Origin: Sphingomonas cannabina | Lineage (GTDB): Bacteria > Pseudomonadota > Alphaproteobacteria > Sphingomonadales > Sphingomonadaceae | Assembly: GCF_021391395.1 (NCBI RefSeq) | Contig: NZ_CP090059.1 | Span: 1,907,001 to 1,971,000, forward strand | Length of the DNA: 64,000 nt | Direction of reading: 5' to 3' | Shown: positions 4,461 through 55,953 of the stretch, piece after piece | How the letters are laid out: every line of letters starts with the position of its first letter | Numbering within the stretch: position 1 is the stretch's first letter | The notes under the pieces: model-generated | Seen by the model: only the letters and a program-made list of their open reading frames with translations | Told to the model about the DNA's origin: nothing | Databases searched by the model: none | Translations under genes and position numbers: made by a program

Positions 4461-4510
4461 CGGGCAGCCTCCTCCTTGGTACGCGTCAGCCGTGGACACA
4501 TATGTCTTAT

Positions 4511-4546: not shown

Positions 4547-4614
4547 AAGATTTCAAATCAGGTTCGGATAGTCGCCTGATCGCGCGGCAGGAACGGCCGA
4601 ACGCGAACGATGCA

Positions 4615-6114: not shown

Positions 6115-6301
6115 ACCCCAAGCCTCGCTTTCCCGGTGTTCGACAGCGTGCCCGCGCTCATCCGGCAGCTCACCCCTTGCTGGTTTCTGAACCCGGCGAC
6201 GGTAGGCACGTTTATCCCCCAAGGAAACACCAATGCTGGTTCCGAAAGGTGCGATGCAGGGTTGAGCAGTGCGCCGGCGCCTCCGTACAGAAAGGGGCGC
6301 C

Positions 6302-26589: not shown

Positions 26590-26665
26590 GGCCCCTTCGT
26601 CTAGCGGTCTAGGACGTCGCCCTCTCACGGCGAAAACACGGGTTCGAGTCCCGTAGGGGTCACCA
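26590..26665 (+). tRNA. tRNA-Glu (CTC)
   Basis: Seventy-six bases including a genome-encoded CCA. Acceptor GGCCCCT pairs with AGGGGTC. The anticodon loop is CTCTCAC on a TCGCC/GGCGA stem, giving anticodon CTC. The T-loop is GTTCGAGTC. Its 3' half is the left boundary of the genomic island, and the inserted element restores an intact tRNA. Confidence 0.95.
26622..26665 (+). repeat. attL (3' end of tRNA-Glu)
   Basis: A 44-bp segment beginning CTCTCACGGCGAAAACACGG and ending GGGGTCACCA, identical to 49281-49324. It covers the anticodon loop to CCA, a common tyrosine-recombinase target. Confidence 0.88.
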
Positions 26666-30314: not shown

Positions 30315-30943
30315 GTGCGGCACCACTCGTTCACGCTATCCAGGAGCGGCTTCGCGAGGCCGGGTATCGTGACATCACGACGCCGTTCCGGATCGCAGGC
30401 GTCGAGTTTGCCTTCACTGCGGCCATGCGGGGCCATGAAGCGCGGGCGCTTGATCTCATCCTGCTGTTCGACACGACCACCGGCGATTTCGGCGACCGGG
30501 AAGCGGCGCGGGTGCGCCAGCGTGTCGAAGCGCTCAGCCGGGCGCTTGATGTCACGGGGTCGCGCTATGTCGTGACGGCGATCCTCGCGGGCGCGCTACT
30601 CGCAGAAACGGTGGAGGCGCTCGCCGAGACCTGCCGCGTGCTGCAGGTCGAAGGCGTCGCGATCGGTGCCGATGGCAAGCCAGCCGACGACGTGGCAATG
30701 CGGCAGCTAGAGGACCAGATTCGCGTGCTGCTCCCGCTGCGGCTTCCCGAAGGGACAGCCGAGAGCCAAGATGGAAACGGACCCGCGGTAGAGCAGCTGG
30801 TGCGCGCGCTGCCGGCGACCAACAAGGCGTTACTCAACGCGGTGATCATAGCGTCGGAACAGGGTGAGCAAGCCGTCACGGACGCGGCCGGGCTTGCCGT
30901 CGGCGCGCCGTTCCGCGGCGATGAGGGGGTGCAACCCTTATGA
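30311..30943 (+). CDS. Small middle-component protein, defence operon gene 2
   Basis: The 210-residue protein lies between a SIR2-like gene and an ABC ATPase gene, with 4-base overlaps at both ends (GTGA and ATGA). Segments FRIAGVEFAFTAAMRGHEAR, LDLILLFDTTTGDFGDREAA and VEALSRALDVTGSRYVVTAI suggest an alpha/beta fold with a conserved acidic strand (LLFDTT). The position and size match the middle components of three-component ABC-ATPase conflict systems (ABC-3C). I do not recognise the exact family. Role inferred: adaptor between the ATPase and its effector. Confidence 0.5.
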   Translation: MSAAPLVHAIQERLREAGYRDITTPFRIAGVEFAFTAAMRGHEARALDLILLFDTTTGDFGDREAARVRQRVEALSRALDVTGSRYVVTAILAGALLAETVEALAETCRVLQVEGVAIGADGKPADDVAMRQLEDQIRVLLPLRLPEGTAESQDGNGPAVEQLVRALPATNKALLNAVIIASEQGEQAVTDAAGLAVGAPFRGDEGVQPL

Positions 30944-33366
30944 CTGGGTCTATCCTCAGGGAACTCGACATCACCAACTTCCGGAGCATTCGCGGCCATG
31001 TCTATGCGCCGCTGGACGCCAAGGTCGTGCTCATTCATGGTGAGAATGGCGCGGGCAAGACGAGCCTGCTCTCAGCGATCGAGCTGGCGCTCACCGGCAG
31101 CGTGCAGTCCTTGCACCGGGCTGATGCCGGCTATGCAAAGCAGCTGTTGCATCGCTCGGCTACCAGCGGCAGCGTCCTGGTTAAGACGTCCGGCGAAGCG
31201 GGCGAGCAAAGCTTCGAGACACGGCTCGATGCCGGTGGCGCGACGGCGGTCGGAAAGCTCGAGCAGCGGCTCGCGGCATTCTTCAGCGAACGGGCCTATC
31301 TGCCCCAATCGCTACTCGGGCAGCTGCTGCAGATCTACCAGGAATCGGGCTCGGGCGCGGACTCTCCGCTCGCCAGGTTCGTCGGCAAGCTGCTCGGACT
31401 AGACCGGCTCGACGCCCTGGAAGCGGGGCTCAAGCCGCTGGTCGATATTCGCAACGTTCGCAAGGTTGTGGACGGCTGGAGTGGCGCCGAGACCGAAAAG
31501 ACACGGCTCGAACGGCTGCTCGAAGGCCAACGCAATACAAGAGCCACCGTTGCCGAGAGCCTGGCGGCGGAGTTCGAGCGGCTGAAGGCGATTGCGGTTC
31601 AGATTGCGCCCGACCTGGGTGCCGACGAAGCGGCGCTCGACGCACTGACCGCCGCACTCGAGGACAAGACCGATGAGACGGCGTTGGAAGCGCTTCTCGA
31701 TCAGGTGCGCCAGCTCGGCGCGATCAAACGCGAAATCGCCCAAGCGCAGGGAAGCGCCCAAGGAGCGGCGACGCTTCCCGATGCCGACGGCGCGGCGGCC
31801 GCCTATCAGCGGTGGGAGACCGGCGATGGCACCCGGGTCTCCGCAATGCGCATCCGGGTAGAGCAACTGCTGCCACAGGCATCACTGCCGGGCGACCTTG
31901 GCCGGTTCCCAGATGAGGCGCTCGTCCAGCTGCGCGCGGCGACCAAGGCCGTGTCCGACCGGGCAGCCCAGGCGCGCGTTGACAGCGCCCGCCGCGCGGC
32001 CGCGCAGTCAGAGCGCGATACGGCACTGGAGCAGCGCAACACGATCGATGCGGAAGTCGGCTCGATCTCTAGCGATTCCGGGAGCCTCGCCTCGGCGCTG
32101 GCCGAACTGGCCAGCTTCCTGAACGATGAGATCTGCCCCGTCTGCGACCGGAATTTCAGCGAGGAAGGCAAGGGCACGCTCGGCGAGCATGTCCACGCCA
32201 AGGTGCGGCGACTCTCTGGATCTGCCGAACGGTTGCTGGCGCTCGGCCGCTCGCGCAGCGAGGTGCAATTGAGTGTCGAACGGCTGGAGCGCGAGATCGA
32301 GGCGTTGACCTCGCGTATCCTCGATCCGAAGGCGCTGGCTGATCTCGATCGGCGGGCAGCCGATCTAGATGCCGCTGTCACGGAGCTGGAAGGCCTGGCG
32401 GATGCCTTTCGCGAAGGTGGCAGGCTGCGCGGTGAGGATGTGGTGGCGCGTCGGGCCGTCACCGAGGCACAATCGCGCACCGCGGCGCTGCTCGGCGCGC
32501 GGGAGACACTCGGGACGTTCGCACGTGCGCTCGGCGCGGCCGGGCCGGGCGAAGGCGAAACATTCGAGGCAGCGGCGGGGCGGCTTGAGCTTAGGCTCAT
32601 GGCCGAGAACAAGCGGCTCGGCGACCGCGTGACGATGCGCCGCGAGGGGCTGGAACGCGTCGCGTCGATCCGTACCGCCCTAGCGCGGCGCGCCGAGATC
32701 GACGCTGGCATTGGCAAGGACATGGCGGCGTGGCGCCGCGCCGACAGCGCGCTCACCCGGTCCCAGGCGCTCCGCGACGAAGGCATCGCCATTCGCAACG
32801 CCGTCGATCGGGTACGCTCGGCGATCATCCGGCGCGAATTCAACGACCGGCTGAATTTCTTGTGGCGCGATCTCTTCGTTCGGCTGGCACCGAGCGAACC
32901 ATTCGTCCCGGCTTTCCGCATTCCGCCATCGGGTACACAGCGGCTGCAGCCCAAGCTCATCACCGAGCATCGTTATGGCGGCGAGGCAGGCGGCACGCCG
33001 GGCGCGATGCTCAGCGCCGGCAATCTCAATACCGCTGCGCTGACGCTTTTCATCGCGCTACACCTGTCAGTGCCGAAGGAGCTGCCCTGGCTGATCCTCG
33101 ACGATCCCGTGCAGTCCATGGACGATGTCCATATCGCCCATTTCGCGGCGCTGCTCAGAACCCTATCGAAGGAGCATGGCCGCCAAGTGCTGATCGCGGT
33201 GCATGACCGGCAGCTGTTCGAATATCTCCGGCTGGAGCTCAGCCCCGCCTTCCCCGAGGACAGCCTATTGACGCTCGAGCTGTCGCGCAGTCAGCGACGC
33301 GACACCTTATGCAGCCATGAACGCTTTTCGTTCAAGGAAGAGACGGCACTGCTGGCGGCCGCCTAG
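30940..33366 (+). CDS. Rad50/SMC-like ABC ATPase, defence operon gene 3
   Basis: The 808-residue protein has the split ABC head of SMC-type ATPases. Walker A is GENGAGKT (34-41), after ITNFRSIRG. Two long coiled-coil arms are separated by a zinc-hook CPVC (399-402). The ABC signature LSAGN is at 691-695 and Walker B with D-loop is LILDDPVQSMDD (718-729), followed by an H-loop (VHDRQLFEY). The hook suggests dimerisation through zinc, as in Rad50. The start overlaps the upstream stop. In a SIR2-containing operon such an ATPase would be the sensor of foreign DNA ends or structures; this is inference. Confidence 0.88.
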   Translation: MTGSILRELDITNFRSIRGHVYAPLDAKVVLIHGENGAGKTSLLSAIELALTGSVQSLHRADAGYAKQLLHRSATSGSVLVKTSGEAGEQSFETRLDAGGATAVGKLEQRLAAFFSERAYLPQSLLGQLLQIYQESGSGADSPLARFVGKLLGLDRLDALEAGLKPLVDIRNVRKVVDGWSGAETEKTRLERLLEGQRNTRATVAESLAAEFERLKAIAVQIAPDLGADEAALDALTAALEDKTDETALEALLDQVRQLGAIKREIAQAQGSAQGAATLPDADGAAAAYQRWETGDGTRVSAMRIRVEQLLPQASLPGDLGRFPDEALVQLRAATKAVSDRAAQARVDSARRAAAQSERDTALEQRNTIDAEVGSISSDSGSLASALAELASFLNDEICPVCDRNFSEEGKGTLGEHVHAKVRRLSGSAERLLALGRSRSEVQLSVERLEREIEALTSRILDPKALADLDRRAADLDAAVTELEGLADAFREGGRLRGEDVVARRAVTEAQSRTAALLGARETLGTFARALGAAGPGEGETFEAAAGRLELRLMAENKRLGDRVTMRREGLERVASIRTALARRAEIDAGIGKDMAAWRRADSALTRSQALRDEGIAIRNAVDRVRSAIIRREFNDRLNFLWRDLFVRLAPSEPFVPAFRIPPSGTQRLQPKLITEHRYGGEAGGTPGAMLSAGNLNTAALTLFIALHLSVPKELPWLILDDPVQSMDDVHIAHFAALLRTLSKEHGRQVLIAVHDRQLFEYLRLELSPAFPEDSLLTLELSRSQRRDTLCSHERFSFKEETALLAAA

Positions 33367-36504: not shown

Positions 36505-38460
36505 TCACATGCCGATCGTGGGTCCGCGGCTGCGTCCAATGGTCCAGGAGATGCCACCTTCGCGCACGACACCGGCCACCTCCTTGCCGATCGCGCGCTC
36601 GAGCACCGGGCGCCATGGCACGAGCGTGAACTCCCTCGACTTCTCGATCACCGCGTACTTGGCGGAGCCGACCTGCACGGCCCTGCAATAGGTGCCCTCG
36701 ACCGAGCTACCCTGATGCTCGACATAGCCGAGGCCCAGCTCCTTCGAGAGCTGCCCCGCCACCTGCCGCAGCTCGCGCTGGCGTAGCTCGTTCATCATGC
36801 CGGAGCGGAAGTGGATGATGTCGCCATCGCGCCAGGCAAGCCCCTGCTCGACCAGCCATTGCCGGCGAAGCGCCAGCGCCCGGCGCACCTCTGCCCCGAA
36901 CCCGCGCTCCAGCGGCTCAGGGTCCTTCGCCACATTCTGCTCGTCGAGCCAGGTCACGCCATCGTGACGGGTCATCTGGTCGAGGCGCAGCCCGGACAGC
37001 GTCTCGATCTCGACCGGGCGAGCCGCGACGGCCTGGCGCTCGAACTTCAACACGCGGTCGAGATGATCGGGGGCAACCTTCCAGCTTCCGTCGGGAAGCC
37101 GCTCGACCTCTCCCCGGCCGCGGCGCATGGCCTCGAGCCGCCGCACATGCGCCTCGGCAAAGCGCTGTGTAGCGCTCCTGTCGTGCCGGAGATGATTGTC
37201 GATGCTGTAAATGCCGCCGTTTGTCGCGGCGATTTCGGCAATGGTTCGATCGGCCTGCCGCACGGCGGGCACGAGCGGGTTCACCCTCACGATCCGGGGA
37301 TGGTCGATCATCTCGGGGGGCGAGCCGGTGCCGAGCTCTACATAGTGGCTGCGCCCGTCCGTGGCGGCGACGATCATGTAATGGCGGTCGTTGTGCTCGT
37401 CTGCGAGCCCGCGCGCGACCACGCGGCCGACGAGTGGCTTGCCTTCGGACGGGTCATAGATCGCATAGTCCTGCGGCGGGACCTCCGGTGCGCGTTCCTC
37501 CAGCTGTGCATGCATGGTCGCGATGATGTCGCCGCGTCGTCCCATCGCACGCAGCGTCTCCTCAAGGTCATCGGCGAGACGGTAGCGGCCTCGTCCTTCC
37601 TGGGTGGCGAGCCCCATGCGCGCGAGCGTGCCCAGGCGAGCGGCGCGCAGGCTTTGCTCAACGCTGTCGCGATGCACGGGCGAGACCAGGCCGTCCTCAC
37701 CCTGCGCGAGCAGCAGCTTGCGGTCGATCCCCGTGAACCGCTCCTGCGTGATCTCCCGCTGGCGCGCCTCGAAGATCTCGCGGTCGGTGCGGGGACCCAG
37801 ATCGAGATTGACCAGCTCGGCGGCGCGCTCGGCGAGCCCGCGGCTGATATACTCGCGAGCGATGATCAGGTCCTTGCCGCGATCATCGACGCCACGCACC
37901 AGCACGTGGCTGTGCGGATGACCAGTGTTGAAGTGGTCGACCGCCACCCAGTCGAGCTTCGTGCCTAGATCCTGCTCGACCTGTTTCATCCAGCGCCGCA
38001 CCAGCGGCTTGAGGTCGTCATACTGCGCGCCGTCCTCCGGCGCGACGATGAAGCGGAACTGATGACGGTCGCCGGCTCCCCGCTCGACGAACTCCTTGCC
38101 GTCGGCGACATCGCGGTCAGCGGCGTAAAGCGATCCCCGCTCGCCTTCCCGGGTGGTGCCGTCGCGCTGCAGATAGCGCAGGTGCGCCACCGCCGCGCTG
38201 GCGCCCTTGCCGGCGAGCTTCACGAAGCGCGCTTTCACGATCACGCGGCGCGAGCGGAATCCAGCGAAGCGATCCGACGATCCAAGCACCCGGCCCATGC
38301 CCGCGCCGCGGCCGATCCGGCTGCCATCGAAGCGCCGTGCGCGACCACCGGACGATCGCCGGGCGCCACCTGCCAGATTGGCCGCCTTGCGCAGCTGGTG
38401 CGCGAACGGCCGATCCTTGCCGATCCGGCCCAGCCAAAGCTCGAAATCATCCTCGGCCAT
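36505..38460 (-). CDS. VirD2-like relaxase with DUF3363 domain
   Basis: The 651-residue protein nicks DNA at oriT for conjugative transfer. Visible are the N-terminal VIVKARFVKLAGKGASAAVA region, DGTTREGERGSLY, RHQFRFIVAPEDGAQYDDLK, and the metal-binding histidine motif HFNTGHPHSHVLVRG near residue 180. A long DUF3363 part follows (GVTWLDEQ, GRSRGPTIGM at the end). Start ATG 38460 removes an unconserved extension. oriT is expected in the 303-bp space upstream. No coupling protein or T4SS gene is in the island, so mobilisation rather than self-transfer is likely. Confidence 0.88.
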   Translation of the reverse strand: MAEDDFELWLGRIGKDRPFAHQLRKAANLAGGARRSSGGRARRFDGSRIGRGAGMGRVLGSSDRFAGFRSRRVIVKARFVKLAGKGASAAVAHLRYLQRDGTTREGERGSLYAADRDVADGKEFVERGAGDRHQFRFIVAPEDGAQYDDLKPLVRRWMKQVEQDLGTKLDWVAVDHFNTGHPHSHVLVRGVDDRGKDLIIAREYISRGLAERAAELVNLDLGPRTDREIFEARQREITQERFTGIDRKLLLAQGEDGLVSPVHRDSVEQSLRAARLGTLARMGLATQEGRGRYRLADDLEETLRAMGRRGDIIATMHAQLEERAPEVPPQDYAIYDPSEGKPLVGRVVARGLADEHNDRHYMIVAATDGRSHYVELGTGSPPEMIDHPRIVRVNPLVPAVRQADRTIAEIAATNGGIYSIDNHLRHDRSATQRFAEAHVRRLEAMRRGRGEVERLPDGSWKVAPDHLDRVLKFERQAVAARPVEIETLSGLRLDQMTRHDGVTWLDEQNVAKDPEPLERGFGAEVRRALALRRQWLVEQGLAWRDGDIIHFRSGMMNELRQRELRQVAGQLSKELGLGYVEHQGSSVEGTYCRAVQVGSAKYAVIEKSREFTLVPWRPVLERAIGKEVAGVVREGGISWTIGRSRGPTIGM

Positions 38461-38763
38461 GACGCATTCTCTCGGGTGAAAGCGCCAGATGAGGGCGTGC
38501 CCGGGCGGCCCTTCAAGGGCCTCCAATCGATCTCGCCTGCGAGCCGCAGAAAAGCTGGGCTCATGAGCGAGCAATCTCGAAATGGAGGCACTCTCCTGAG
38601 CATGCCTCCATAGAAAACGACGTGCAGACGCCACTTTCGGGGCCTCGTGGAGGCATCGCTTTTAACTTGCCTTACCGAATTGCCGCGTACCTGCTCGACA
38701 TCCGGCAAACATCCAATATGGATGTGCACCGAAATCCTGGTCGCCAATTCAAAGGAGAGCGCG
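38461..38763. other. Relaxase-MucR divergent region, candidate oriT
   Basis: A 303-bp space. It holds an inverted repeat ATGCCTCCA / TGGAGGCAT (about 38601-38655, arms roughly 40 bases apart) and the palindrome at 38709-38725. Position beside a relaxase start is typical of oriT, but no nic consensus could be assigned. Confidence 0.4.
38709..38725. promoter_or_regulatory. Palindrome ACATCCA-ATA-TGGATGT, candidate MucR operator
   Basis: Perfect 7-bp arms with a 3-bp A/T centre, 39 bp before the MucR-like start codon. Ros/MucR regulators bind A/T-rich sites and repress their own genes, so autoregulation is plausible. Confidence 0.5.
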
Positions 38764-39258
38764 ATGTCCGACGAGAATTCTCTGAACGCTGTCGAGCTTG
38801 CAACCGAGCTTACCATTGCGTGGCTCGGCAATCAGAATAACCGCGTCGCAGCCGACGAAGTGCCGGCATTCCTGCGCACGATGCACGCGACGATCAATGA
38901 ATTGTCGAGCGCTTCCGGCCCTGCGGATGGCGAGCAAAGCGGCGCAGAATCGCCCGAAGAATTCACGCCGGCGGTGTCGGTGCGCAAGTCGCTTGCGTCA
39001 AGGGATCACATCATTTCGATGATCGACGGCAAGCCTTACCGGACGCTGCGCCGCCATCTTTCGACCCATGGTTTGACGCCGGAAGAATATCGCGCGCGCT
39101 ACAATTTGAAGCCCGATTACCCGATGGTCGCGCCGAACTATTCGGAGCAGCGCCGCGCGATGGCGCACAAGATCGGGCTTGGTGCAAAGGGACGCGCAGC
39201 CAGGGGCGCGGCGAAGCCGGCGCGTAAACCGCGCGCGAAAGCGACGGCAGAAAGCTGA
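38764..39258 (+). CDS. MucR/Ros family transcriptional regulator
   Basis: The 164-residue protein has the MucR pattern: ELATELTIAWLGNQNNRVAA (N-terminal oligomerisation), SLASRDHIISMIDGKPYRTL, RRHLSTHGLTPEEYRARYNL, KPDYPMVAPNYSEQRR, and a basic C-terminal tail. The zinc-finger cysteines of classical Ros are replaced (SLASRDHIISMIDG), as in cysteine-less Ros homologues. AAAGGAGAG precedes ATG 38764. It is divergent from the relaxase gene and probably controls transfer functions and itself. Confidence 0.85.
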   Translation: MSDENSLNAVELATELTIAWLGNQNNRVAADEVPAFLRTMHATINELSSASGPADGEQSGAESPEEFTPAVSVRKSLASRDHIISMIDGKPYRTLRRHLSTHGLTPEEYRARYNLKPDYPMVAPNYSEQRRAMAHKIGLGAKGRAARGAAKPARKPRAKATAES

Positions 39259-39295
39259 GAACAGAGCGCCGGGCGCATCGCGCCCGGCGCCACGA

Positions 39296-40219
39296 TCAGG
39301 CGGCCACGCTGGCCTCGAGCGCAGCGATACGCTCTTCGCAGATCACCTGCACCACGCGCCCGAGTTCTTCGACGCGCTCGCCGAGCCACGTCAGCTCCTC
39401 GACACTGATGCGGTAATGCTTGGAGTAGCGCGCCTTCACATAGGCTTCCTTGAGCTTCTCGAAGCGTGCGCGATCCATGCGGTTGTCGCGCGGCCAGGCA
39501 TCGATCAGCCTTGGATCGATCCGCTCGGCCTGCGTGCGCAGGAAGCCGAGATTATGCACGTGCGGGGTGTAAAAGGTGCAGACCAGCAGCACGCAGTGGT
39601 AGAGCCGTTCGGCAGCTTGGTGGAGCTGAAACGCCGCGTTGTTCAGCCGACCTTGCGATAGATTAAAGCGGAAGTTGTCGTAGAATTCTCCCCCGCTCGG
39701 ATACCAGTCGTCAAAATATTCCTTCGCCATCGCCAGTGCCTGCTGCGGCGTTTTGGGCTTGGGCTGGTGCAGCTCGGTACTGTCGCTCTCGTAAAGCGCG
39801 ATGCCGTCGCGGGCGATATCCATGAAGAAATAGCGCCCGTGCGCGAGGCCATCGTTCACCTCCTGAAGCGTGTGAACGATGAAGTTGACCGGCGTCCGCA
39901 GCGTCCTGGTGATCGCCAGCTCGCGGTTGAGCCGGTCCTCGGCCGACGACCAGAACTCCACCCGGTCGGTGAGCTTCTCGTGATTGACGATGATGAGCAG
40001 GTCGAAGTCGGACTGGTAGCCCTTGGCGGTATGCGGCTCGTCGACCCAGCCGCCGCGCGCATAGCTGCCGTAGAGGATCACCTTGAGGATGCGTGCCTGC
40101 TTCTTCCAGTCGGACGTGGCGATCGCGGTCGCGTCGCCGAACTCCTCGAAGAGGATTTGCACGACGCGCTCCAGCTCGCGCTGCTTGGCTGGGGGCAGAT
40201 GATCGACGCCGGTCTTCAT
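39296..40219 (-). CDS. Nucleotidyltransferase-HEPN fusion protein
   Basis: The 307-residue protein joins a minimal nucleotidyltransferase (GSYARGG at 51-57, D71-x-D73, LLIIVNHEKL) to a C-terminal HEPN-like helical domain (FNLSQGRLNNAAFQLHQAAE, RLYHCVLLVCTFY). In MNT/HEPN toxin-antitoxin pairs the HEPN part is an RNase and the MNT part AMPylates and silences it; here both are in one chain. A classical R-x4-6-H RNase motif is not obvious. It lies last in a ParB, sigma-4, NT-HEPN minus-strand group. A related fragment is at the left edge of the window. Confidence 0.78.
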   Translation of the reverse strand: MKTGVDHLPPAKQRELERVVQILFEEFGDATAIATSDWKKQARILKVILYGSYARGGWVDEPHTAKGYQSDFDLLIIVNHEKLTDRVEFWSSAEDRLNRELAITRTLRTPVNFIVHTLQEVNDGLAHGRYFFMDIARDGIALYESDSTELHQPKPKTPQQALAMAKEYFDDWYPSGGEFYDNFRFNLSQGRLNNAAFQLHQAAERLYHCVLLVCTFYTPHVHNLGFLRTQAERIDPRLIDAWPRDNRMDRARFEKLKEAYVKARYSKHYRISVEELTWLGERVEELGRVVQVICEERIAALEASVAA

Positions 40220-40278
40220 CGTCTCAAACTCGCGCCTCGGGCCTGAAATGCCAAGTGGATATGTGAGAGACGGCGGGC

Positions 40279-40503
40279 CTAAAGCCCGCCGTCCTCCTCG
40301 GTGCACCGCATGATGTGCAGCATTGCGGCGGCCAAATGACGCTCGACTTCCCTGACCGTGATGCCGAGTTCGGCGGCGATCTGGTGATAGTCGAGGTCGC
40401 GATAGCGGTGCCGTTCGAACACTGCGCGGGGCAGTTCATCCATCGTATCCAGCGCCTGCGCGATCCGGCGCAGCACTTCGTGAAGCGGAAGGTCGTGGCC
40501 CAT
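40279..40503 (-). CDS. Small sigma-70 region 4-like DNA-binding protein
   Basis: The 74-residue protein reads LDTMDELPRAVFERHRYRDL followed by YHQIAAELGITVREVERHLA, the region-4 helix-turn-helix of sigma factors without region 2. Such small proteins are frequent in sphingomonad integrative elements. It lies 64 bp after the ParB stop and 59 bp before the NT-HEPN start, on the same strand. Confidence 0.7.
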   Translation of the reverse strand: MGHDLPLHEVLRRIAQALDTMDELPRAVFERHRYRDLDYHQIAAELGITVREVERHLAAAMLHIMRCTEEDGGL

Positions 40504-40567
40504 GACGTGGCTCCTTCGGGCAAGGACCGGCGGCGAGCAGCGTCGCCGCCGGTGCTCAAGGGACCCG

Positions 40568-42301
40568 TCACGCGGCCTCGCGGACCGGCTCGGCTTCGGG
40601 CTCTGGGACGATCAGGCTCGCCACCGCAGCGGAGCGATCGGCAGCACCGACGCCGCCACGCGGCGTATAGCTGCTGGCCGGAAAGCGCATCCAGCGCGGC
40701 ACCCAACCCTCGACCTTGGTCCTGCCGTTGCGGCCCTCAATGCAGTCACGGATGATCGCCTTGAGGGTCTTGCCGGTCTCCTTGGCGTTGGCTTCGGCGA
40801 CCTGCCTGCCCGCCAGTTCCTCGACCATCGCGAGCAGGACTTCGCGGTCGCGGATCAAGTCGAGCAGCGCGTCGTCGGCTTGCCAGACCGGCGCCATGTC
40901 CACCGCCAGATGCAGCCCGAGCACGTCCACCATGTCACTGCGCGCATGGAGCGTCTCGCCCATGACGATGGCGAGGATGTCGAGCACTTGGCGCTCGTCG
41001 AGGCGGACGAGCCTGACGAACAGCGACGCCAGCCAGTCGAGTTCGCCGCCGGTAATGGTCGACGTCTCGGGATCGAAGCCGAGCAGCGCCAGCATCTCGC
41101 GCCGCCGGGCGTCGAACGCCGCTTCGGAGGCGGAAGTCTCGACACTTTCGGTCACCGCGTCGCTACCGCAGCGCTGCTGCTCGACCTTTACGTTCCAGAG
41201 TGGCGAGCCCGCGATCATGTGCGCAACAGCGACTCGAAGCGCCACACCCGGCTCGTCGGCCAGCTTGGCGCGCACCGCCGCGTGGCGATGCAGGTCGACA
41301 TAATCGTTGCCGGTGCCGGTGATCTCCGGCCGGATCGACTTCTCGACCACCTCGCCTTTCGCGAGCTTCCGCGCTTCCTTGAGGCTGATATAGCCCTCGT
41401 GGAAGGTAACGTCCCCGCGATGGGCCATGGCGATATAGACCTTGCCGCCTTTCCGCTTGGCCCGCCGCTCATGCTCCCATGTCTGGAATGGCTGCCCGGG
41501 CTCGAGGATGACGACCTCGCTCCATCCGGCCTCGCGATACGCCTCGGCCCGATCCTCGACGGCGGCGTTCTGCGCGACCCAGAACTGCTCGACATTGGCG
41601 AAGTAGCTATCCTCGCCGAACAGGTCGGCGACGATATCCCCGCCGAAGTCCGACAGCTCGAACAGCGCAACCTTCGTGGAAATCGACGCCCCGCCGAACA
41701 GCCACGCCTTGAGCTGCTGCCCGACCGGTGCCCGCGTCTCCGGATCGTCGGCAAGGGCCAGCCATTCGCGCTGCTTCGTCTTGGACGCCAAGGTCAGGTG
41801 CCGCACGGTGATGGCGTCGATCTTCTCGGACCGGTACAGATTGCGGATTCGCGGAAGCAGGTTGCCGAGCGCCAGCGTGCGCTTCACCTGCACCTCGGTC
41901 AGGCCGAAGGTGATGGCGATCGCCTCGGGGCTGCGGCCCTCGCGGACCAGCCGCGTGAACGTCTCCCAGCGGGTCATCTCGTCGGGATCGAGCCGGGCGA
42001 TGTTCTCGATGAGCGATGCTTCCAGCGCCGCCGCATCATCGCCGGCTTCCATGATCGCGCAAGGCAGCTCGTCGATGCCGCCGCCTTCCTCCGCGACCGC
42101 GAGCGCCGCATGGTATCGCCGCTTGCCCGCCACGATCTCGTAGGCGTCGGTCGAGCCGTTCGTCCGCACGATCAGCGGCACCAGCACGCCCCGGGCGCGA
42201 ACAGACGGCAGGATGTTGGTCAGGTCCGGCGCCTTCTTCGCTCCCCGCATGTTGACGGGCGAGACGCTGAGCTTCGCGATGTCGATATGCTTGAGTTCCA
42301 T
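40568..42301 (-). CDS. ParB/Spo0J-type partition protein of the island
   Basis: The 577-residue protein has an N-terminal ParB domain: PLIVRTNG, YEIVAGKRRYHAALA (GKRR at 59-62) and LIENIARLDPDEMTRWETF (ENIAR at 99-103), then an HTH (SPEAIAITFGLTEVQVKRTL). The long C-terminal part is typical of plasmid and ICE ParB homologues (about 570-700 residues), which are often unaccompanied by ParA as here. It may serve maintenance or gene regulation in the island. Confidence 0.88.
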   Translation of the reverse strand: MELKHIDIAKLSVSPVNMRGAKKAPDLTNILPSVRARGVLVPLIVRTNGSTDAYEIVAGKRRYHAALAVAEEGGGIDELPCAIMEAGDDAAALEASLIENIARLDPDEMTRWETFTRLVREGRSPEAIAITFGLTEVQVKRTLALGNLLPRIRNLYRSEKIDAITVRHLTLASKTKQREWLALADDPETRAPVGQQLKAWLFGGASISTKVALFELSDFGGDIVADLFGEDSYFANVEQFWVAQNAAVEDRAEAYREAGWSEVVILEPGQPFQTWEHERRAKRKGGKVYIAMAHRGDVTFHEGYISLKEARKLAKGEVVEKSIRPEITGTGNDYVDLHRHAAVRAKLADEPGVALRVAVAHMIAGSPLWNVKVEQQRCGSDAVTESVETSASEAAFDARRREMLALLGFDPETSTITGGELDWLASLFVRLVRLDERQVLDILAIVMGETLHARSDMVDVLGLHLAVDMAPVWQADDALLDLIRDREVLLAMVEELAGRQVAEANAKETGKTLKAIIRDCIEGRNGRTKVEGWVPRWMRFPASSYTPRGGVGAADRSAAVASLIVPEPEAEPVREAA

Positions 42302-42948: not shown

Positions 42949-43773
42949 GTGATCAGTGGCGCGAAAGTGCGCTCACCGCTGCGGTGGGCTGGAAGCAAGC
43001 GTAAGAGCCTTTCAGTGCTCCGGCGTTACATCCCTGCTGACATCACTACCTATATCGAGCCTTTCGCCGGATCAGCTTGCCTCGCGTTCACTCTCGACCA
43101 TTGCGAGAAAATCTTGGGCGATATTAATCCGAGATTGATAGAATTCTACGAATATTTACGCGACGCGCCTGAGCAGCTGCACACCGCTTATAGCGCACTG
43201 CCCGGCGATCCCAACAATTACTACAAGGTCCGTGCTCAATACAATGCAAGCGCGCCTTCGCTCGATCGTGCAGCGCAATTCTTGTATCTTAATCGACATT
43301 GTTTCAACGGTATCTACCGGGTAAATTCAAAAGGTGCCTTTAATGTGCCTTGGGGCGGCGACAAGGTCGGCAAGCCACTCACCCGCGAGGAACTGGTAAC
43401 GGCATCCAAGGTACTGGGATCCGCGCGACTAATCTGTGGCGACTTTGAGCGTGTCGTACTCGATAATATTAACGAGAATAGCTTTATTTATCTCGATCCA
43501 CCCTATGCCTCGAATGAAATTCGTGTGTTCCGTGAATATCATGAGGAGAGTTTTGCTACCGATGACTGGGATCGCTTTGTAGAAGTACTGCGCAAAATCG
43601 ACGAGGCGGGTGCACGTTTCCTGCTGAGCTATGCCGGGGCGCCGCTCATAGCCCGCTTTGGCGACTGGAATGTTGGGCACCTAGACGTTACGCGTAACGT
43701 CGGGGGCTTCCGCGCTACTCGGCGTAAACACCGCGAGTTCGTGGCGATGAATTTTGATCCCGCCGACGCATGA
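42949..43773 (+). CDS. DNA adenine methylase (Dam/alpha class), cargo operon 2 gene 1
   Basis: The 274-residue enzyme transfers a methyl group from S-adenosylmethionine to adenine N6. Motifs are in alpha-class order: SPLRWAGSKRK (9-19), IEPFAGSACLAF (motif I, 36-47), the recognition region with FLYLNRHCFNGIYRVNSKG, and FIYLDPPYASNEI (DPPY at 183-186). GTG 42949 is chosen for the GAGGGGGG ribosome site; a TTG at 42922 is possible. The stop overlaps the phosphoesterase start (ATGA). No restriction endonuclease is adjacent, so it may protect self DNA against the phosphoesterase/ATPase module that follows. Base composition is visibly lower in GC than flanking genes. Confidence 0.9.
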   Translation: MISGAKVRSPLRWAGSKRKSLSVLRRYIPADITTYIEPFAGSACLAFTLDHCEKILGDINPRLIEFYEYLRDAPEQLHTAYSALPGDPNNYYKVRAQYNASAPSLDRAAQFLYLNRHCFNGIYRVNSKGAFNVPWGGDKVGKPLTREELVTASKVLGSARLICGDFERVVLDNINENSFIYLDPPYASNEIRVFREYHEESFATDDWDRFVEVLRKIDEAGARFLLSYAGAPLIARFGDWNVGHLDVTRNVGGFRATRRKHREFVAMNFDPADA

Positions 43774-44999
43774 AAAAGCCCAAGTTGCTCCGAATGGCGG
43801 TGCTGACCGACATCCATGCCTTTTCCGGTGGTGAGGGCCCGGCCCCCTCTTGGATTAATTTGGCCGAGGACCAATCGAACGCGACCATCAACCCATTTGC
43901 GGGACTGCATGCCGAGATAGCCAAAGATGCGAGCATGCGCGCCGACGTTGTTATTTGTTGCGGTGACATGGGTGACAAGGCTTCGCCCGATGGCCAGCAG
44001 TACGTTTGGCAGGAAGTCAATAAACTTAAGGAGGCACTTGGTGCTAGTCAGGTGCTCGGCACAGCCGGGAATCACGACATGGATAGCCGATTCTCGAATT
44101 CGAAGTTCGACGCGCGGGGCCAACTTCAAGCTTTGCAACCGCTCTTTCCAGTCGCGCATAACGACCATTGGCTCGAATACTGGGCGCGCAATTACACTGT
44201 GGTAACGGTGGGCGCCGCGCGCTTCGTGCTGCTCAACTCCTCGGCCTATCATGGCTATCAGAAGGATAAGTCGCCCCCTGAATATTTACAGGGGCGGGTC
44301 AGCGATCGAACGCTCGACAGCTTGCTCGCGCGGCTCAAGGAAGATGGCAAGGCGGCAGCCAATATTCTTGTCTGTCACCATCATCCGCTGCGCAACGATC
44401 AGATCAAGGTTGAGGATTATTCGGAGATGCAGAATGGCGATCGCCTGATCAACACACTGATTGAGGCGAAGGCGGGGCCTTGGTTGATCATCCACGGCCA
44501 TAAGCATCTTCCGCGGGTTCTCTATGCGCCGGGCGGCAATGTCGCGCCGACGATCTTTTCAGCAGGGAGCTTCTCGGCCAAGCTCTATCCCGAATATGGC
44601 GACAAAGCGCGCAACGAGTTCTACATCGTCGATTTGGAAATACCCGACACGATCGGCGCAGTCAGTAGCTTGCGCGGGTCGATTTCGACTTGGCAATGGA
44701 CGTATGGGAATGGCTGGAACAAACCCAAGTCTGGCCACGGAATCGGCGTCGCCGCCGCGTTCGGGGCGCGGGTAGACGTGGCAGAGGAAGCGACCAAGCT
44801 TGCGACCACGCTCAAGGCCACCCATGCCGGGAGTTCGGTTACCTGGGAAGCGATTTGCGCAACTAATAAGGAGTTCAGACACCTCATTCCCGAGGATCTC
44901 GAGACCTTCCTCGACCACCTTAAATCTGATCACGGTCTTAAGCCGCTCTATGAGCCCGAGGGCGGACTAAGCCTCCTCCAAGTGCCCGCCAATGACTGA
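43770..44999 (+). CDS. Calcineurin-like metallophosphoesterase, cargo operon 2 gene 2
   Basis: The 409-residue protein has all metal-binding motifs: VLTDIH (D14, H16), CCGDMGD (D66), AGNHD (N101, H102), CHHHP and HGHKH. About 130 extra C-terminal residues are not recognised. Enzymes of this superfamily include DNA nucleases (Mre11, SbcD) and cyclic-nucleotide phosphodiesterases. It overlaps the methylase gene by 4 bases and the AAA ATPase gene by 8 bases, so a functional complex is likely. In this setting a nuclease role is plausible, by analogy to SbcD with an ATPase partner, but not shown. Confidence 0.85.
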   Translation: MKKPKLLRMAVLTDIHAFSGGEGPAPSWINLAEDQSNATINPFAGLHAEIAKDASMRADVVICCGDMGDKASPDGQQYVWQEVNKLKEALGASQVLGTAGNHDMDSRFSNSKFDARGQLQALQPLFPVAHNDHWLEYWARNYTVVTVGAARFVLLNSSAYHGYQKDKSPPEYLQGRVSDRTLDSLLARLKEDGKAAANILVCHHHPLRNDQIKVEDYSEMQNGDRLINTLIEAKAGPWLIIHGHKHLPRVLYAPGGNVAPTIFSAGSFSAKLYPEYGDKARNEFYIVDLEIPDTIGAVSSLRGSISTWQWTYGNGWNKPKSGHGIGVAAAFGARVDVAEEATKLATTLKATHAGSSVTWEAICATNKEFRHLIPEDLETFLDHLKSDHGLKPLYEPEGGLSLLQVPAND

Positions 45000-46842
45000 G
45001 GAGGTTACACACGCGCGCGCGTTCGAGGCATTCAATGCCCGCTTTCTAACATCGGAGGAAGTCGCGCGAACATTCATCCCGCCTCCGCAGTATGACCGAC
45101 TGGTCGAAGTCGGACATAGTGTACTGCTCGGGCCACGCGGTAGCGGCAAGACGACCTTGCTCAAGATGCTGCAATTGCGCGCTCTCGCTGCCTGGCAGCA
45201 TGACAAGGCAAGCGAAATCCGCCGCAATATCAGCTATCATGCGATCTTTCTCGGTACCGACGTTCTCTGGGGATCGCAGCTAGAAAGCCGCACCAAGGAT
45301 ATCGCAGACGAAGAAAAGCGCGCGCAAATCCGCAGAACCTCATTCCGCCTCCATCTCGCGCTCGCGTTCTTAAATGCGCTGGACGAATGCCGGGATCCCG
45401 CGCTAGCTAGTCATGCCGAGCTGTCTCGTTTCACGCATGCACTTAACGGCGATACTGAACGTGCCCTCGCGCGCAGTCTAGCTCAGCTCTGGCTAATGGA
45501 TCCAGCTACCGACAGTCTGCTCGGTCTGCGCATTCACCTACGTACTCAGCTTTCCTTGCTGCTCTCGCTTACCAGCGAGCTGCGCAGAGATGCCACCACA
45601 GCGCTGCCGCAATTCGCAGACCTTGATCCGGTAGCTTCTCTCATTTCGGCGATCGACGTGACCAACCACGTTCTCGGTCAGCCGTCACGGCGCTGGGCTA
45701 TCTTATGCGATGAGCTTGAGATTGCACCCGATATGGTTAGGCGTGAACTCTTCCAGCTGTTGCGTAGCACATCGCATAACGTCCTGTTTAAATTCTCGCT
45801 CTTCCCGTACTCTAGCGAACTCTCCACGCTGACTGGCCCAAATTCTCCATCGAGCGGCAATGATTATGCGGCGCTCGAGCTCTATTACGGGAGGCGCGAG
45901 GCGGCCTATCAGTTTTGCGAGGCGATGCTGCGCGGAATGGTAGCCGAAGCGGGTGGTCCGACCTTCCAAATTCCAGAGGAAGTGCTTGGCGATGGCTGGT
46001 TTGATGGGGGCCGAGTGCATCGCCGAACGAAGACATCGCCGTACGCGCCGCCGTCCGGTCAATTCTTCCTGCGCGCCAAACGGCTTGCGGGAATCGACCC
46101 CTCTTTCCAGCAATGGCTGAGGTCGATGCGTATCAATCTTCACAAGGTCCACGAGCTGAGCGACAGCGATCAAGCGCCCTATCGAAAGGCCTTGCCATAC
46201 ATCCTTACGCGCTCGGAGTTCCTGCGCTCTGGGGGTAAATTGCGTAGTCGAAAGGCCATGAGTCTTTATACCGGCGCCTACTCTTTGTTCTCTCTAACCG
46301 AGGGTAATCCGCGGATATTCATCAACCTCATGCGCCCACTGGTGCAAGAATATGCCGAAAAGCAGGGGACAGTGGGAAGTGATGTCGAAGCGGCGTCAGC
46401 CGACCTGACTATCCACCGGTTCCTCTCAAGCCTTTCAGCAATCCCGACCACCGGGCATGGCGACATTCGCTCGATCCTTCAGCTGATAAAGGTGATCGGC
46501 GACTTCTTTAGTGAGACGCAACTCGCGCCTAAATTCAGTTCCGAACCAGCTAGCACCTTCATTGTCGATGACGATGTTCCCGAGTCGATCATCGAGCTGG
46601 TTGGGCGCACGTTAAATGCAGGTGCTCTTGTGCACATGCCCGGGAATGCCGGAGATACTGTCCGCGAGTTACGCGGTGCCAGGCTGCGGCTCGCTTATAC
46701 GCTGGCGCCCGAATATAAGCTTCCTCTAATGTCTGGCCGTTCGATCAATTTGAGCACGATCCTGCATCTCCACGGCGCGGCCCGCCGGCGCCAGCCGGAG
46801 ACGATCCAGCAGGCCCGGCTACCGTTCGGGCTTGAAGAATGA
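44992..46842 (+). CDS. ORC/CDC6-like AAA ATPase, cargo operon 2 gene 3
   Basis: The 616-residue protein has a P-loop HSVLLGPRGSGKTTLLKML (GPRGSGKTT 47-55), Walker B WAILCDELEI (235-244), and a sensor region NVLFKFSLFPYSS. The first 30 residues (FEAFNARFLTSEEVARTFIP) match the start of ORC-CDC6-family ATPases seen in bacterial defence loci. The C-terminal 200 residues include helical and winged-helix-like parts (SLFSLTEGNPRIFINLMRPL, typical of STAND-like ATPases). It overlaps its neighbours by 8 and 4 bases. It is probably the sensor/switch of the operon. Confidence 0.75.
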   Translation: MTEEVTHARAFEAFNARFLTSEEVARTFIPPPQYDRLVEVGHSVLLGPRGSGKTTLLKMLQLRALAAWQHDKASEIRRNISYHAIFLGTDVLWGSQLESRTKDIADEEKRAQIRRTSFRLHLALAFLNALDECRDPALASHAELSRFTHALNGDTERALARSLAQLWLMDPATDSLLGLRIHLRTQLSLLLSLTSELRRDATTALPQFADLDPVASLISAIDVTNHVLGQPSRRWAILCDELEIAPDMVRRELFQLLRSTSHNVLFKFSLFPYSSELSTLTGPNSPSSGNDYAALELYYGRREAAYQFCEAMLRGMVAEAGGPTFQIPEEVLGDGWFDGGRVHRRTKTSPYAPPSGQFFLRAKRLAGIDPSFQQWLRSMRINLHKVHELSDSDQAPYRKALPYILTRSEFLRSGGKLRSRKAMSLYTGAYSLFSLTEGNPRIFINLMRPLVQEYAEKQGTVGSDVEAASADLTIHRFLSSLSAIPTTGHGDIRSILQLIKVIGDFFSETQLAPKFSSEPASTFIVDDDVPESIIELVGRTLNAGALVHMPGNAGDTVRELRGARLRLAYTLAPEYKLPLMSGRSINLSTILHLHGAARRRQPETIQQARLPFGLEE

Positions 46843-47762
46843 GAACCGTCAGCATTGAGGCGATTGCCGCGCAGCGGTTCGACCTGGCGATCCTGACGTG
46901 CGGTTACGAGACGCGTGCCGCTTACTTGCGGAAGAGCATCGCGCTCGACGCCGCCGAACTTGTTGTCCTCGACTATCGCTGCGATACGATATTGAGCTAC
47001 GATGAGAATAAGGCATTTTACGAGAGCCTGTCGAACCGCCGCTTCATCGATATCGACGATTCTCTGAGCGAGAAGTTGAGCACGGCACTTTCAAAGGCCG
47101 CGGCCGGAATCGATGCCGGCAACCGGCTGCGCATTCTCATTGATATTTCTTCTTGCTCGCGGAGCGTGATGGCCAAGCTGCTGCTTGCTATCGCCGAGAC
47201 CTTGCCCGGAAGCGTCGAGTTGACCTGCGCCTACGCTCTATCAGCATTCGATAACCCGCCTGACGGCGAGTTGCCGAGCCATATCTCTGAGCCAGTCGTC
47301 GGTGACCTGTCTGGCTGGTCAGACGACCTTTCCAAACCACCTTGTGCTGTAATCGGGATGGGATTTGAACCTGGGCGTGCGCTCGGATGTATGGACTATC
47401 TCGAAATCCCCGAGGTTCGCCTTTTTATGCCTTACGGCGTCGATCAGCGGTTTGAGCAGGCGGTGCAAGAGGCTAACGCAGTGTTGATTGCCGAGGCCGG
47501 TACGCAGTCGGTGCTACCTTATCAAATTCTCGACCCTGCCGCGACGTATGAGAAGATGGAATCGCTGATCTACGGCCTACTGGCGCGGTTTCGGCCCGTT
47601 ATCATTCCGCTTGGACCAAAGATCTTCGCTGCATTAGCAATGGTGCTTGCGGTGAGGATGCTCCCACGGATTTGCGTGTGGCGAACTTCATCGGGAACAA
47701 TTGGCGGAATCTCAGACCGTACAGCCAATGGAGAAGTCGCGATTTTTACAACGGAGTTCTAG
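46839..47762 (+). CDS. Unknown protein with two GYExR-like motifs, cargo operon 2 gene 4
   Basis: The 307-residue protein is not from a family I can name. Two similar halves are visible: LAILTCGYETRAAYLRKSI (G22-Y-E-T-R26) and AVIGMGFEPGRALGCMDYL (G175-F-E-P-G-R180). Each is followed by a hydrophobic strand and an acidic turn (VVLDYRCD, RLFMPYGVD). A middle strand-helix unit reads ILIDISSCSRSVMAKLLLAI. This looks like a duplicated Rossmann-type fold that could bind a nucleotide. The start overlaps the ATPase stop (ATGA), so it is part of the same system, perhaps an effector or ligand-binding subunit. Confidence 0.6.
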   Translation: MRTVSIEAIAAQRFDLAILTCGYETRAAYLRKSIALDAAELVVLDYRCDTILSYDENKAFYESLSNRRFIDIDDSLSEKLSTALSKAAAGIDAGNRLRILIDISSCSRSVMAKLLLAIAETLPGSVELTCAYALSAFDNPPDGELPSHISEPVVGDLSGWSDDLSKPPCAVIGMGFEPGRALGCMDYLEIPEVRLFMPYGVDQRFEQAVQEANAVLIAEAGTQSVLPYQILDPAATYEKMESLIYGLLARFRPVIIPLGPKIFAALAMVLAVRMLPRICVWRTSSGTIGGISDRTANGEVAIFTTEF

Positions 47763-47877: not shown

Positions 47878-49134
47878 TCATCTCACAAGACGCAGCCCTG
47901 CAGGCTTGTGAACAATTCCATAGTCTCCCAGCCCTGATCGCACTGCATCCCGAACGTAGGACGGGCACAGATGCGCATAGTGTTTGCGCGTAATCCGCTC
48001 GTCGGCGTGTCCCAGCGCCTCCGCAATGACCGCCATCGGCACGCCAGCCATCGCCAGCCGAGACCCATAGGTGTGCCGAAGAATGTGGAAGCCGGCGGGC
48101 TCGACGCCAGCTGCGATGCAAGTCTCTCGCATCGGCCTGATCTGGTGCGATGTGCCCAGCTCTCGGCCATGCTGGTTGAGGAAGACAAGTTCATCGGTCC
48201 GCTTGCCCACGCAAAGGCTTCGGAAGAGCTGGATACCCTCGTCGCTCAAATGCACGAACCGCGGCCGCCCGCTCTTGGTATCGGGGAACGTCAGCGTCCC
48301 GGTCATCAGGTCCACGTCGCGCACACGCACCCTGTGGATCTCGGACCAACGCGCGCCGGTAAGCAGCGCGGCCTGCACAAGGGGCCGGAACCACTCCGGC
48401 GCATATTCGACCAGACGATGGATTTCGGGACCGGTGAAGTATCGGATGCGGGGCGCGCTGACCTTCGGATAGGGCTTGACCCGGCGCCAGGCGCTGTCGT
48501 CGGCTACCTTGCCCAGCGCGAACGCGCGATTGAGCGCAGCGCGAAGCGGCGTGAACGCCCGGTTGGCGTTCGCCCGCTGCACGCGCGCTGCGTCGTCGCG
48601 AAGCGGCCGCTCCTTCGCGACCCCCTTCTTGTTCGCGCGGTAGACCGAACGGCGCGCGGCGATCTTCTCCATGAACGCGCGCAAGCGCTCGGTGGTGAGA
48701 TCGCTCACCTGCACATTCCTGAACTCGGGCCGCACGAGCCGATCAATGACATAGCGGGTCTTGTCGAGCGACTTGCCGGTGAAGTTCTCGATATAGTCGT
48801 CGAGCGCGTCCTCGACCGTGTAGCGCGGACGTCGCCGGCCGGCGTCGCGATCCAGCGCCTCGAACCAGTCCCGGGCCTTGGCCTGCGCGGCTGCAAAGCT
48901 CAGCACGTCCGATGTCTCGCCGTCGAACGCATCGTCCGCGGCGCCGAGAAGAAGCTGCTCGCGCGTTCCGTCGGCTGTCCGGTACTTGGCAATCCAGGTT
49001 CCGCCCTTGGATCCCTTGCGATAGCCGAGCGCCCTGCCGCGCGTCAGCGCGTGCCAATAGGGCGCGTGGCGCATCGGGAGCAGCGCTCGCGCGCTCCTGC
49101 TGTCGAGCCGTTGGTTGCGAACGATACGCGCCAT
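47878..49134 (-). CDS. Tyrosine recombinase / integrase of the island
   Basis: The 418-residue protein has an N-terminal arm-binding part (GTWIAKYRTADGTREQLLLG), a core-binding domain (about 105-215) and the catalytic domain with R262 (LLTGARWSEI), K287 (DTKSGRP), H350-x-x-R353 (HILRHTYGS), H376 (GHADERI) and nucleophile Y386 (KHYAHL). It belongs to the tRNA-targeting phage/ICE integrase group. It lies 146 bp inside attR and reads inward, and ATG 49134 is next to the right arm-type repeat. All catalytic residues are intact, so excision is possible. Confidence 0.93.
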   Translation of the reverse strand: MARIVRNQRLDSRSARALLPMRHAPYWHALTRGRALGYRKGSKGGTWIAKYRTADGTREQLLLGAADDAFDGETSDVLSFAAAQAKARDWFEALDRDAGRRRPRYTVEDALDDYIENFTGKSLDKTRYVIDRLVRPEFRNVQVSDLTTERLRAFMEKIAARRSVYRANKKGVAKERPLRDDAARVQRANANRAFTPLRAALNRAFALGKVADDSAWRRVKPYPKVSAPRIRYFTGPEIHRLVEYAPEWFRPLVQAALLTGARWSEIHRVRVRDVDLMTGTLTFPDTKSGRPRFVHLSDEGIQLFRSLCVGKRTDELVFLNQHGRELGTSHQIRPMRETCIAAGVEPAGFHILRHTYGSRLAMAGVPMAVIAEALGHADERITRKHYAHLCPSYVRDAVRSGLGDYGIVHKPAGLRLVR

Positions 49135-49179: not shown

Positions 49180-49280
49180 AGAAAGCCGGTGGACGCGGAA
49201 GGACTACTTTACGATAAGTAGCTGATTTTGCACGGATACATACCCGTCCATTTGGACCCCAAAACCCCTGGGGGGCCGTG

Positions 49281-49324
49281 CTCTCACGGCGAAAACACGG
49301 GTTCGAGTCCCGTAGGGGTCACCA
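49281..49324 (+). repeat. attR (tRNA-Glu 3' fragment)
   Basis: Identical 44 bp to attL. There is no 5' tRNA half before it, so it is a recombination scar rather than a tRNA gene. It sets the right boundary of the island. Confidence 0.88.
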
Positions 49325-55203: not shown

Positions 55204-55953
55204 ATGCCCACTGTTCTGATCACCGGCTGTTCCTCGGGCTTCGGCCTCGAAACCGCGAAGCTGTTCCTCGAGAAGGGCTGGAAGGTCGTCGCCACGATGC
55301 GCAATCCCAGGGACGGCATCCTCCCGACGTCCGACAACCTCGTCGTCCTCCCGCTCGACGTCACCGATCCGGCCAGCATCGCCAGCGCTTTCGAGAAAGC
55401 CGGCGACATCGACGTGCTGGTCAACAATGCAGGGTTCGGCGCCGCGGTGCCGATCGAGCTGATCGACCCGGAGACCGCGCGCCAGCTGTTCGAAACCAAT
55501 ATGCTCGGCACGCTGGCGACGGTTCAGGCGGTGCTGCCCAAGTTCCGCGCGCGCCGCGGCGGAACGATCATCAACGTCACCTCCACCGCGACGCTGAAGC
55601 CGCTGCCCTTGGTCAGCGTCTACCGGGCGAGCAAGGCGGCGGTGAATGCGCTTACCGAGAGCCTCGCGGTCGAAATGGAGCCGTTCGGTGTCCGCGTGCA
55701 TATCGTCCTTCCCGGCCGCTCGCCGGAGACCAGCTTCGGCGACAACGCGATGCCGCACCTGCGCGGGCTCGATAACCCCGACTACAAGCCGCTGATCGAG
55801 GGCATGATCGCCAATTTCCGCGAGGATACGGGTCCGGTTACCCATGCGGTCGATGTGGCGGAGGCGGTCTGGCAGGCGGCTACCGATCCCAGCGCGCCCC
55901 TCCGGATTCCGGCCGGCGAGGACGCGGTGCAGTGGATGGCCGAGGCTCGTTGA
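55204..55953 (+). CDS. SDR family oxidoreductase
   Basis: The 249-residue protein is a classical short-chain dehydrogenase: cofactor motif TGCSSGFG, NNAGFGAA, catalytic Ser in INVTSTAT and Y-x-x-x-K in VYRASKAAV. MRNP after strand 2 suggests NADP preference. CGGAG precedes ATG 55204. The divergent AraC regulator is its likely controller. Substrate unknown. Confidence 0.9.
   Translation: MPTVLITGCSSGFGLETAKLFLEKGWKVVATMRNPRDGILPTSDNLVVLPLDVTDPASIASAFEKAGDIDVLVNNAGFGAAVPIELIDPETARQLFETNMLGTLATVQAVLPKFRARRGGTIINVTSTATLKPLPLVSVYRASKAAVNALTESLAVEMEPFGVRVHIVLPGRSPETSFGDNAMPHLRGLDNPDYKPLIEGMIANFREDTGPVTHAVDVAEAVWQAATDPSAPLRIPAGEDAVQWMAEAR

Follow-up and report, generated by a model that had tools for sequence, protein, structure and literature searches.

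The locus analyzed here raises the question of what is achieved by joining, in a single operon, a DNA methyltransferase, a metallophosphoesterase, an ATPase and a fourth protein that a preliminary description, made from the sequence alone, had left without a recognized family. The operon lies in a 64,000-nucleotide stretch of the Sphingomonas cannabina genome (contig NZ_CP090059.1, positions 1,907,001 to 1,971,000), referred to in full as the window, where four intact open reading frames (ORFs) follow each other on the + strand with overlaps of 4, 8 and 4 bases. Their products are a Dam-type (D12 class) adenine-N6 DNA methyltransferase (MTase) of 274 aa with predicted GATC specificity (42949..43773; PF02086, TIGR00571), a calcineurin-like metallophosphoesterase (MPE) of 409 aa with a C-terminal winged helix and a predicted effector role (43770..44999), an ORC/CDC6-like AAA+ ATPase of 616 aa (44992..46842; PF24389), and a 307-aa protein that a PADLOC profile and structure comparison identify as a tandem CARF (CARF6) protein, a predicted sensor of nucleotide ligands (46839..47762). 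The MTase ORF is read from a GTG at 42949, a TTG at 42922 being a possible alternative start. With moderate confidence, we read the four genes as a self-contained operon of immune type, which DNA methylation would license and in which a conserved core is combined with a predicted exchangeable effector.

Conservation of the operon across phyla

The distribution of the operon was assessed in a sample of loci obtained from a genome scan with an alignment of the ATPase (at least 54 loci), to which four plasmid loci and the window were added, giving 59 sources (58 loci and the window). The ATPase is encoded in 56 of these, the MPE in 54 and the CARF gene in 54; the sources missing the MPE (L006, L043) or the CARF gene (L032, L056) are contigs that end at that point. 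The order MPE-ATPase-CARF, hereafter the trio, is kept across seven phyla, in alpha-, beta- and gammaproteobacteria, Actinomycetota, Bacteroidota, Planctomycetota, Gemmatimonadota, Acidobacteriota and Verrucomicrobiota. The preliminary description had taken the four overlapping genes for one operon, and their intact ORFs, their overlaps and their co-occurrence in this order across phyla, rather than mostly apart, bear this out. Within 6 kb, counting ORFs of at least 90 aa, no other gene family recurs in more than five of 61 loci; the commonest is, by eye, resolvase-like. A plasmid search returned five records; the trio was found in all four that were examined, from Methylobacterium, Cupriavidus, Sinorhizobium and Pseudoalteromonas, with a Dam-type MTase in front of it in three of the four.

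The ATPase family is uncommon. PF24389 matches over the cut-off were found in 8 of 289 alphaproteobacteria (single full-length match only in the window genome), 7 of 369 gammaproteobacteria (MPE version only in the centre genome), 7 of 247 Vibrio-family genomes (all with the MPE) and 8 of 247 genomes from the order of genome G299 (four with the MPE). Peptide patterns derived from the window ATPase, which reach close relatives only, had no match in IMG/VR, the ATPase of locus L031 had none in 50,697 phage records, and no DNA-level match to the Vibrio-type trio (L112) was found in E. coli genomes.

Host Dam appears to stand in for the operon methylase

The window MTase matches PF02086 with 158 bits and, above the cut-off, the TIGR00571 dam model with 209 bits, and its nearest solved structures are DpnM (2dpm, 141 bits) and E. 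coli Dam (99 bits). The catalytic DPPY motif is present in 42/42 system MTases and NGxxRxN in 40/42, the remaining two (L001, L049) keeping NGxxR by eye. The window protein thus combines a D12 MTase domain, the catalytic DPPY and a TIGR00571 score above the cut-off, as expected of a Dam-type MTase, whose GATC specificity is predicted. Among the 54 MPE-bearing sources, a Dam-like MTase accompanies the trio in 42, in line in 39 of them and otherwise placed in L041, L044 and L054 (in the first two downstream, on the other strand). Four sources (L008, L009, L022, L035) carry an MTase of another D12-type family, six (L004, L025, L026, L031, L033, L036) carry none, and two (L028, L029) are truncated on the MTase side.

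The presence of the MTase was compared with that of a host Dam, scored with NF008152 (E. coli-type Dam). Thirteen trio hosts encode an E. coli-type Dam (397-447 bits); the genome scan contributed six of them, and searches targeted around genomes G303 and G299 the other seven (L112-L118). In none of their 12 readable loci was a DNA MTase found near the trio, using the Dam-like profile, comparison with the alternative MTases and a search for DPPY-type motifs in ORFs of at least 150 aa; the only such motifs detected were chance matches inside two MPEs. The 45 hosts without an E. coli-type Dam, in which the best other score was 181 bits, provide 42 readable loci, and all 42 carry an MTase (38 Dam-like, 4 of the other D12 family). 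This association has a Fisher p of 2.9e-12, kinship not being corrected for. A control is provided by four more distant PF24389 loci (L119-L122), whose hosts are Dam-positive (340-409 bits), yet all four keep a DNA MTase that is not Dam-like (N6_Mtase or N6_N4_Mtase); a Dam-positive host thus dispenses with the Dam-like MTase only.

In a tree of the ATPases in which each of the 68 rows carries a label, three changes are required to account for the MTase-less state, and starred branches force them; L006, L043 and L125, whose MTase state is unreadable, were labelled with the MTase-bearing rows. Two of the three MTase-less clades are nested in MTase-bearing, Dam-negative clades, one beside L047 and L053 (Cellvibrio) and the other beside L042, L055 and L023 (Halomonas/Thalassolituus). 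Over 37 loci, pairwise distances between MTases correlate with those between MPEs, ATPases and CARF proteins (Mantel r 0.68-0.72, 0/2000 shuffles as high).

Because an MTase accompanies the trio in Dam-negative hosts and is missing from Dam-positive ones, it is very likely, as far as sequence comparison can tell, that the self mark consists in methylated GATC. This agrees with the self-marking role that had been proposed for the MTase in the preliminary description. A resident host Dam, where present, appears to stand in for the operon MTase; read most simply, the operon would require methylated GATC irrespective of the enzyme that provides it.

The scope of these counts is as follows. Left out were L006 and L043, whose contigs start inside the ATPase, L028 and L029, whose contigs start just before the MPE, and the plasmid locus L004; the other plasmid loci (L001-L003) carry an MTase, and the Dam state of their hosts is likewise unscored. 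L029, a contig of 4.6 kb, comes from a metagenome-assembled genome (MAG) of 1.3 Mb with no Dam match and is by eye nearly identical to L028, whose host has Dam. L041, L044 and L054 were counted as MTase-bearing, and L033 was counted although it is preceded by one short non-MTase gene only, its near-twin L112 being fully readable. Since L022/L035 and L033/L112 are near-copies, there are fewer independent cases than the counts suggest. The window genome stands outside the 45 Dam-negative hosts; it encodes no other Dam, the sole further D12 protein scoring 64 bits in a PF02086 search.

Two observations on the MTase position can be added. The alternative D12-type MTases of L008 (6333-7772), L009 (6432-7802) and L022 (6415-7746), from two alphaproteobacteria and Microbacterium, form one family that replaces the Dam-like MTase. 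On the Pseudoalteromonas plasmid (L004), the place of the MTase is occupied by a 614-aa protein of no clear family (2889-4733).

A constant ATPase-CARF core and a predicted exchangeable effector

The window ATPase matches PF24389 with 379 bits against a cut-off of 27. Walker A is present in 62/63 ATPases, the only miss being the truncated L006, and the Walker B residues D240/E241 are invariant in a 17-row alignment, on which the assignment of this motif rests; typed patterns missed Walker B in 13/63 rows and the NPR motif in 22/63. Its initial reading as a P-loop ATPase of ORC/CDC6 type is thereby upheld. The fourth protein, in turn, does belong to a recognized family: it matches the PADLOC CARF6 profile PDLC01918 (192 bits), 47/47 homologues match CARF6 as well, and its predicted structure has a Rossmann-type CARF fold that VIA-align places nearest Can1, Csm6 and Cap5 SAVED. 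Both units have conserved residues where strands 1 and 4 end and in the loops that follow, and the protein is accordingly best described as a tandem CARF (CARF6), a putative nucleotide-ligand sensor. A search of PDB sequences with the CARF profile gave nothing meaningful.

In distant PF24389 loci, PADLOC confirms CARF6 after the ATPase in L119, L124, L125, L126 and L153. A second match to our own CARF profile in the window (55204-55953, 35 bits) is a short-chain dehydrogenase and was discarded as a false positive. The ATPase and the CARF protein form the constant core of these loci. PADLOC also holds a CARF-kinase-AAA fusion (CARF_STK_AAA), which supports a physical pairing of the two proteins. 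Such fusions, as far as the available passages of Makarova 2014 (PMC4012209) describe them, share with the operon an ATPase and a CARF domain that are joined or adjacent, and a kinase domain occurs in the ATPases of L126 and L127; the window version differs in having separate genes, no kinase, and an MPE and a Dam-type MTase in addition.

The catalytic and metal-site motifs of the MPE are invariant (61/61). Its winged helix (wHTH-Calcineurin_assc) falls below the cut-off in the window protein and is detected in 39/47 homologues at E<=0.001. The metal phosphoesterase named in the preliminary description stands; its hint at a nuclease is made less likely by better matches to cyclic-nucleotide phosphodiesterases than to Mre11 and by the exchange of the MPE for other predicted effectors. 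In the distant loci, the slot before the ATPase is occupied by PRTase-CE in L119-L123 and on a Klebsiella plasmid (L153), by HD-CE in L125 and by a protein of no family in L124; in L126 and L127 an MTase directly precedes an ATPase fused to a protein kinase domain. This swapping of the MPE for PRTase-CE or HD-CE beside a fixed core is effector-like behavior, and the MPE is accordingly predicted to be an exchangeable effector. The action on nucleotides of Calcineurin-CE, PRTase-CE and HD-CE effectors is a prediction attached to their names. An action of the MPE on nucleotides is more likely than the cutting of DNA.

The L153 locus (2289-7340) encodes an N6 MTase, PRTase-CE, the ORC-CDC6-like ATPase and CARF6 on a 51-kb conjugative Klebsiella plasmid. 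The ATPase of L119 has matches in 147 plasmid records, 130 of which are from Klebsiella.

Proposed mechanism and alternative explanations

In the mechanism that we favor, the Dam-type MTase would mark the GATC sites of the host as self. The trigger may be DNA whose GATC sites are unmethylated or undermethylated, for instance that of a phage entering the cell or replicating fast, and/or a nucleotide held in the CARF pocket; the ATPase-CARF core would then switch on the MPE. The MPE would probably hydrolyse nucleotides or nucleotide signals, leading to cell arrest and so stopping phage growth. In a host with its own Dam, the MTase gene, which is absent there, would be dispensable. We infer the GATC motif, the unmethylated-DNA trigger, the nucleotide-hydrolysing output and the anti-phage purpose.

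Several observations weigh against this interpretation. The Dam-positive hosts are related Gammaproteobacteria, so that only three changes underlie the count. Of the MTase-less clades, the third (L115, L116, L118) falls together with the distant PRTase-CE branch, which makes the past presence of a Dam-like MTase there less clear. Several of the hosts scored as Dam-negative are represented by draft genomes or MAGs, in which the absence of Dam is less sure, and the chromosome of the host of the plasmid locus L004 is unscored. The MTase counted for L054 is 3 kb distant and on the opposite strand, and L004 and L036 encode, 3-4 kb upstream, a small class I S-adenosylmethionine (SAM) methyltransferase of no DNA-MTase family. 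Common host ancestry contributes to the Mantel values given above. GATC is not enriched upstream of the operon (33 observed vs 47 expected, 38 loci), and on these numbers a GATC-based autoregulation is not supported. The winged helix of the MPE could point to DNA. No cyclase conserved with the trio was found in the 61 loci within 6 kb, a test that an occasional cyclase would escape. For the fourth protein, Foldseek alone ranks SAM methyltransferases first, with an rmsd of mostly 7-20 A; this identity was set aside in favor of the VIA-align and profile evidence. In the remaining distant loci, the CARF-like gene after the ATPase is a weak match to our own CARF profile only, and as that profile is not fully specific, such matches prove little.

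A more novel reading, which we put forward tentatively, is a Dam-guard immune system. Here the ATPase-CARF core would read the GATC methylation state of DNA in the cell, whether set by the operon MTase or by the housekeeping Dam of the host, and would release an effector that destroys nucleotides once methylation lags behind phage replication or a phage blocks Dam. If true, the operon would be licensed by modification and trigger abortive immunity at the nucleotide level instead of cutting DNA.

The first alternative, rather unlikely, is an unusual restriction-modification system, in which the MPE would be an Mre11/SbcD-like nuclease that is guided by the winged helix and the ATPase to cut DNA with unmethylated GATC, with CARF as an allosteric regulator. 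The resemblance of the window MTase to DpnM and the logic of self-marking are shared with type II restriction-modification with a DpnM/Dam-type MTase. The operon differs from such systems in its ATPase, CARF protein and MPE, and profile searches recognized no restriction-enzyme domain in the four operon proteins, matching what had been noted from the sequence at the outset. ORC/CDC6-type ATPases also occur together with DNA modification in BREX and Ssp, according to the available passages of PMC12839542 and PMC10853773; the combination of a modification enzyme with such an ATPase is shared, but the four operon proteins have no match to PglZ, BrxX, SspB or phosphorothioation genes.

We consider it improbable that the CARF protein reads cyclic oligonucleotides made elsewhere, by a type III CRISPR or CBASS system in the same cell, with the MPE acting as a ring-nuclease-like off switch. 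The CARF/SAVED fold of the fourth protein and the proximity of the MPE to cyclic nucleotide phosphodiesterases speak for it, and the likeness to CARF/SAVED sensors (Can1, Csm6, Cap5, Csa3) extends to the conserved residues after strands 1 and 4. The fourth protein differs from these sensors in having neither a fused effector nor a conserved cyclase partner; a nucleotide cyclase encoded with the sensor, by which CBASS and type III CRISPR signalling are recognized, is not shared by the 61 loci within 6 kb, nor is any other fifth gene family, and the relation between MTase and Dam would be left unexplained. An addiction module of mobile elements, in which the trio would be toxic unless GATC is methylated, loss of the element would kill and phage defence would be secondary, is just as improbable: it would suit the methylation rule and the location of the trio both on an integrative island and on plasmids from four genera, but a module without MTase could not addict a Dam-positive host, and the trio is kept in such hosts.

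The operon resides on a mobile island

The operon sits on a 22.7-kb island flanked by two copies of tRNA-Glu with a common 57-nt 3' end. The borders are direct repeats of this end (26609..26665 and 49268..49324, both + strand), resembling att sites, with 89% identity overall and the last 44 nt identical, and a tyrosine integrase (PF00589, 89.7 bits) is encoded at 47878..49134 on the - strand. GC content is 54-58% over 43-48 kb vs 60-72% in kilobases 36-43 and 48-53. Both the lower GC and the place on an integrated element, as first described, hold. An exact empty site, sought with both flanks, was not shown; the genes of the left flank are present in relatives, in which the initial ~750 bp on the right side are for the most part not found.

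A second module at 28410-33366 comprises three overlapping + strand genes, for a SIR2-domain protein (PF13289, 28.5 bits), a 210-aa protein and an SMC/Rad50-like ATPase (101 bits against Lamassu LmuB). It resembles a Lamassu-type operon in which SIR2 is the effector, and its presence on the same island fits a defence island. At the left end, a DUF6602 protein (27189-28139) has PD-(D/E)XK and NucC-like matches of 61 and 38 bits. The ORF at 39296-40306 fuses a polymerase-beta-type nucleotidyltransferase and HEPN in one protein, resembling a fused MNT-HEPN pair, and plasmid-like transfer and partition genes are found at 36505-42301 (a DUF3363/relaxase-like protein, a ROS/MUCR regulator and a ParB-type protein).

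Relation to known systems and implications

Nucleotide-targeting immune effector systems with Calcineurin-CE, PRTase-CE and HD-CE were reportedly surveyed by Nicastro and colleagues in 2023, and the set is probably covered there. The Pfam names ORC-CDC6-like, PRTase-CE, HD-CE and wHTH-Calcineurin_assc presumably stem from that survey. The likeness of the operon to these systems consists in the Pfam names of its ATPase, its winged helix and the swapped effectors; the exchange between operon MTase and host Dam and the MTase-less clades were derived in the present analysis. In a protein-level search, PADLOC 2.0.0 models match the MTase and CARF6 and give only weak matches for the MPE and the ATPase. 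The literature search met no description of the four-gene set in the titles and passages covered, the most likely papers (gkaa635; gkad879 = PMC10681802) lying outside them, and the passages of PMC12669027 that were available do not name CARF6. The parts, and probably the set as well, fall within a class of immune operons that has been predicted. What appears to be new is the exchange of Dam and MTase, which was not met in the literature covered.

Two branches of bacterial immunity that usually occur apart, the marking of self by DNA methylation and nucleotide sensing of the CARF type, meet in this operon around a single ATPase. That a host Dam naturally takes the place of the operon MTase makes the self signal directly testable in dam-plus vs dam-minus strains, and it suggests that dependence on a housekeeping epigenetic mark can arise in an immune operon.

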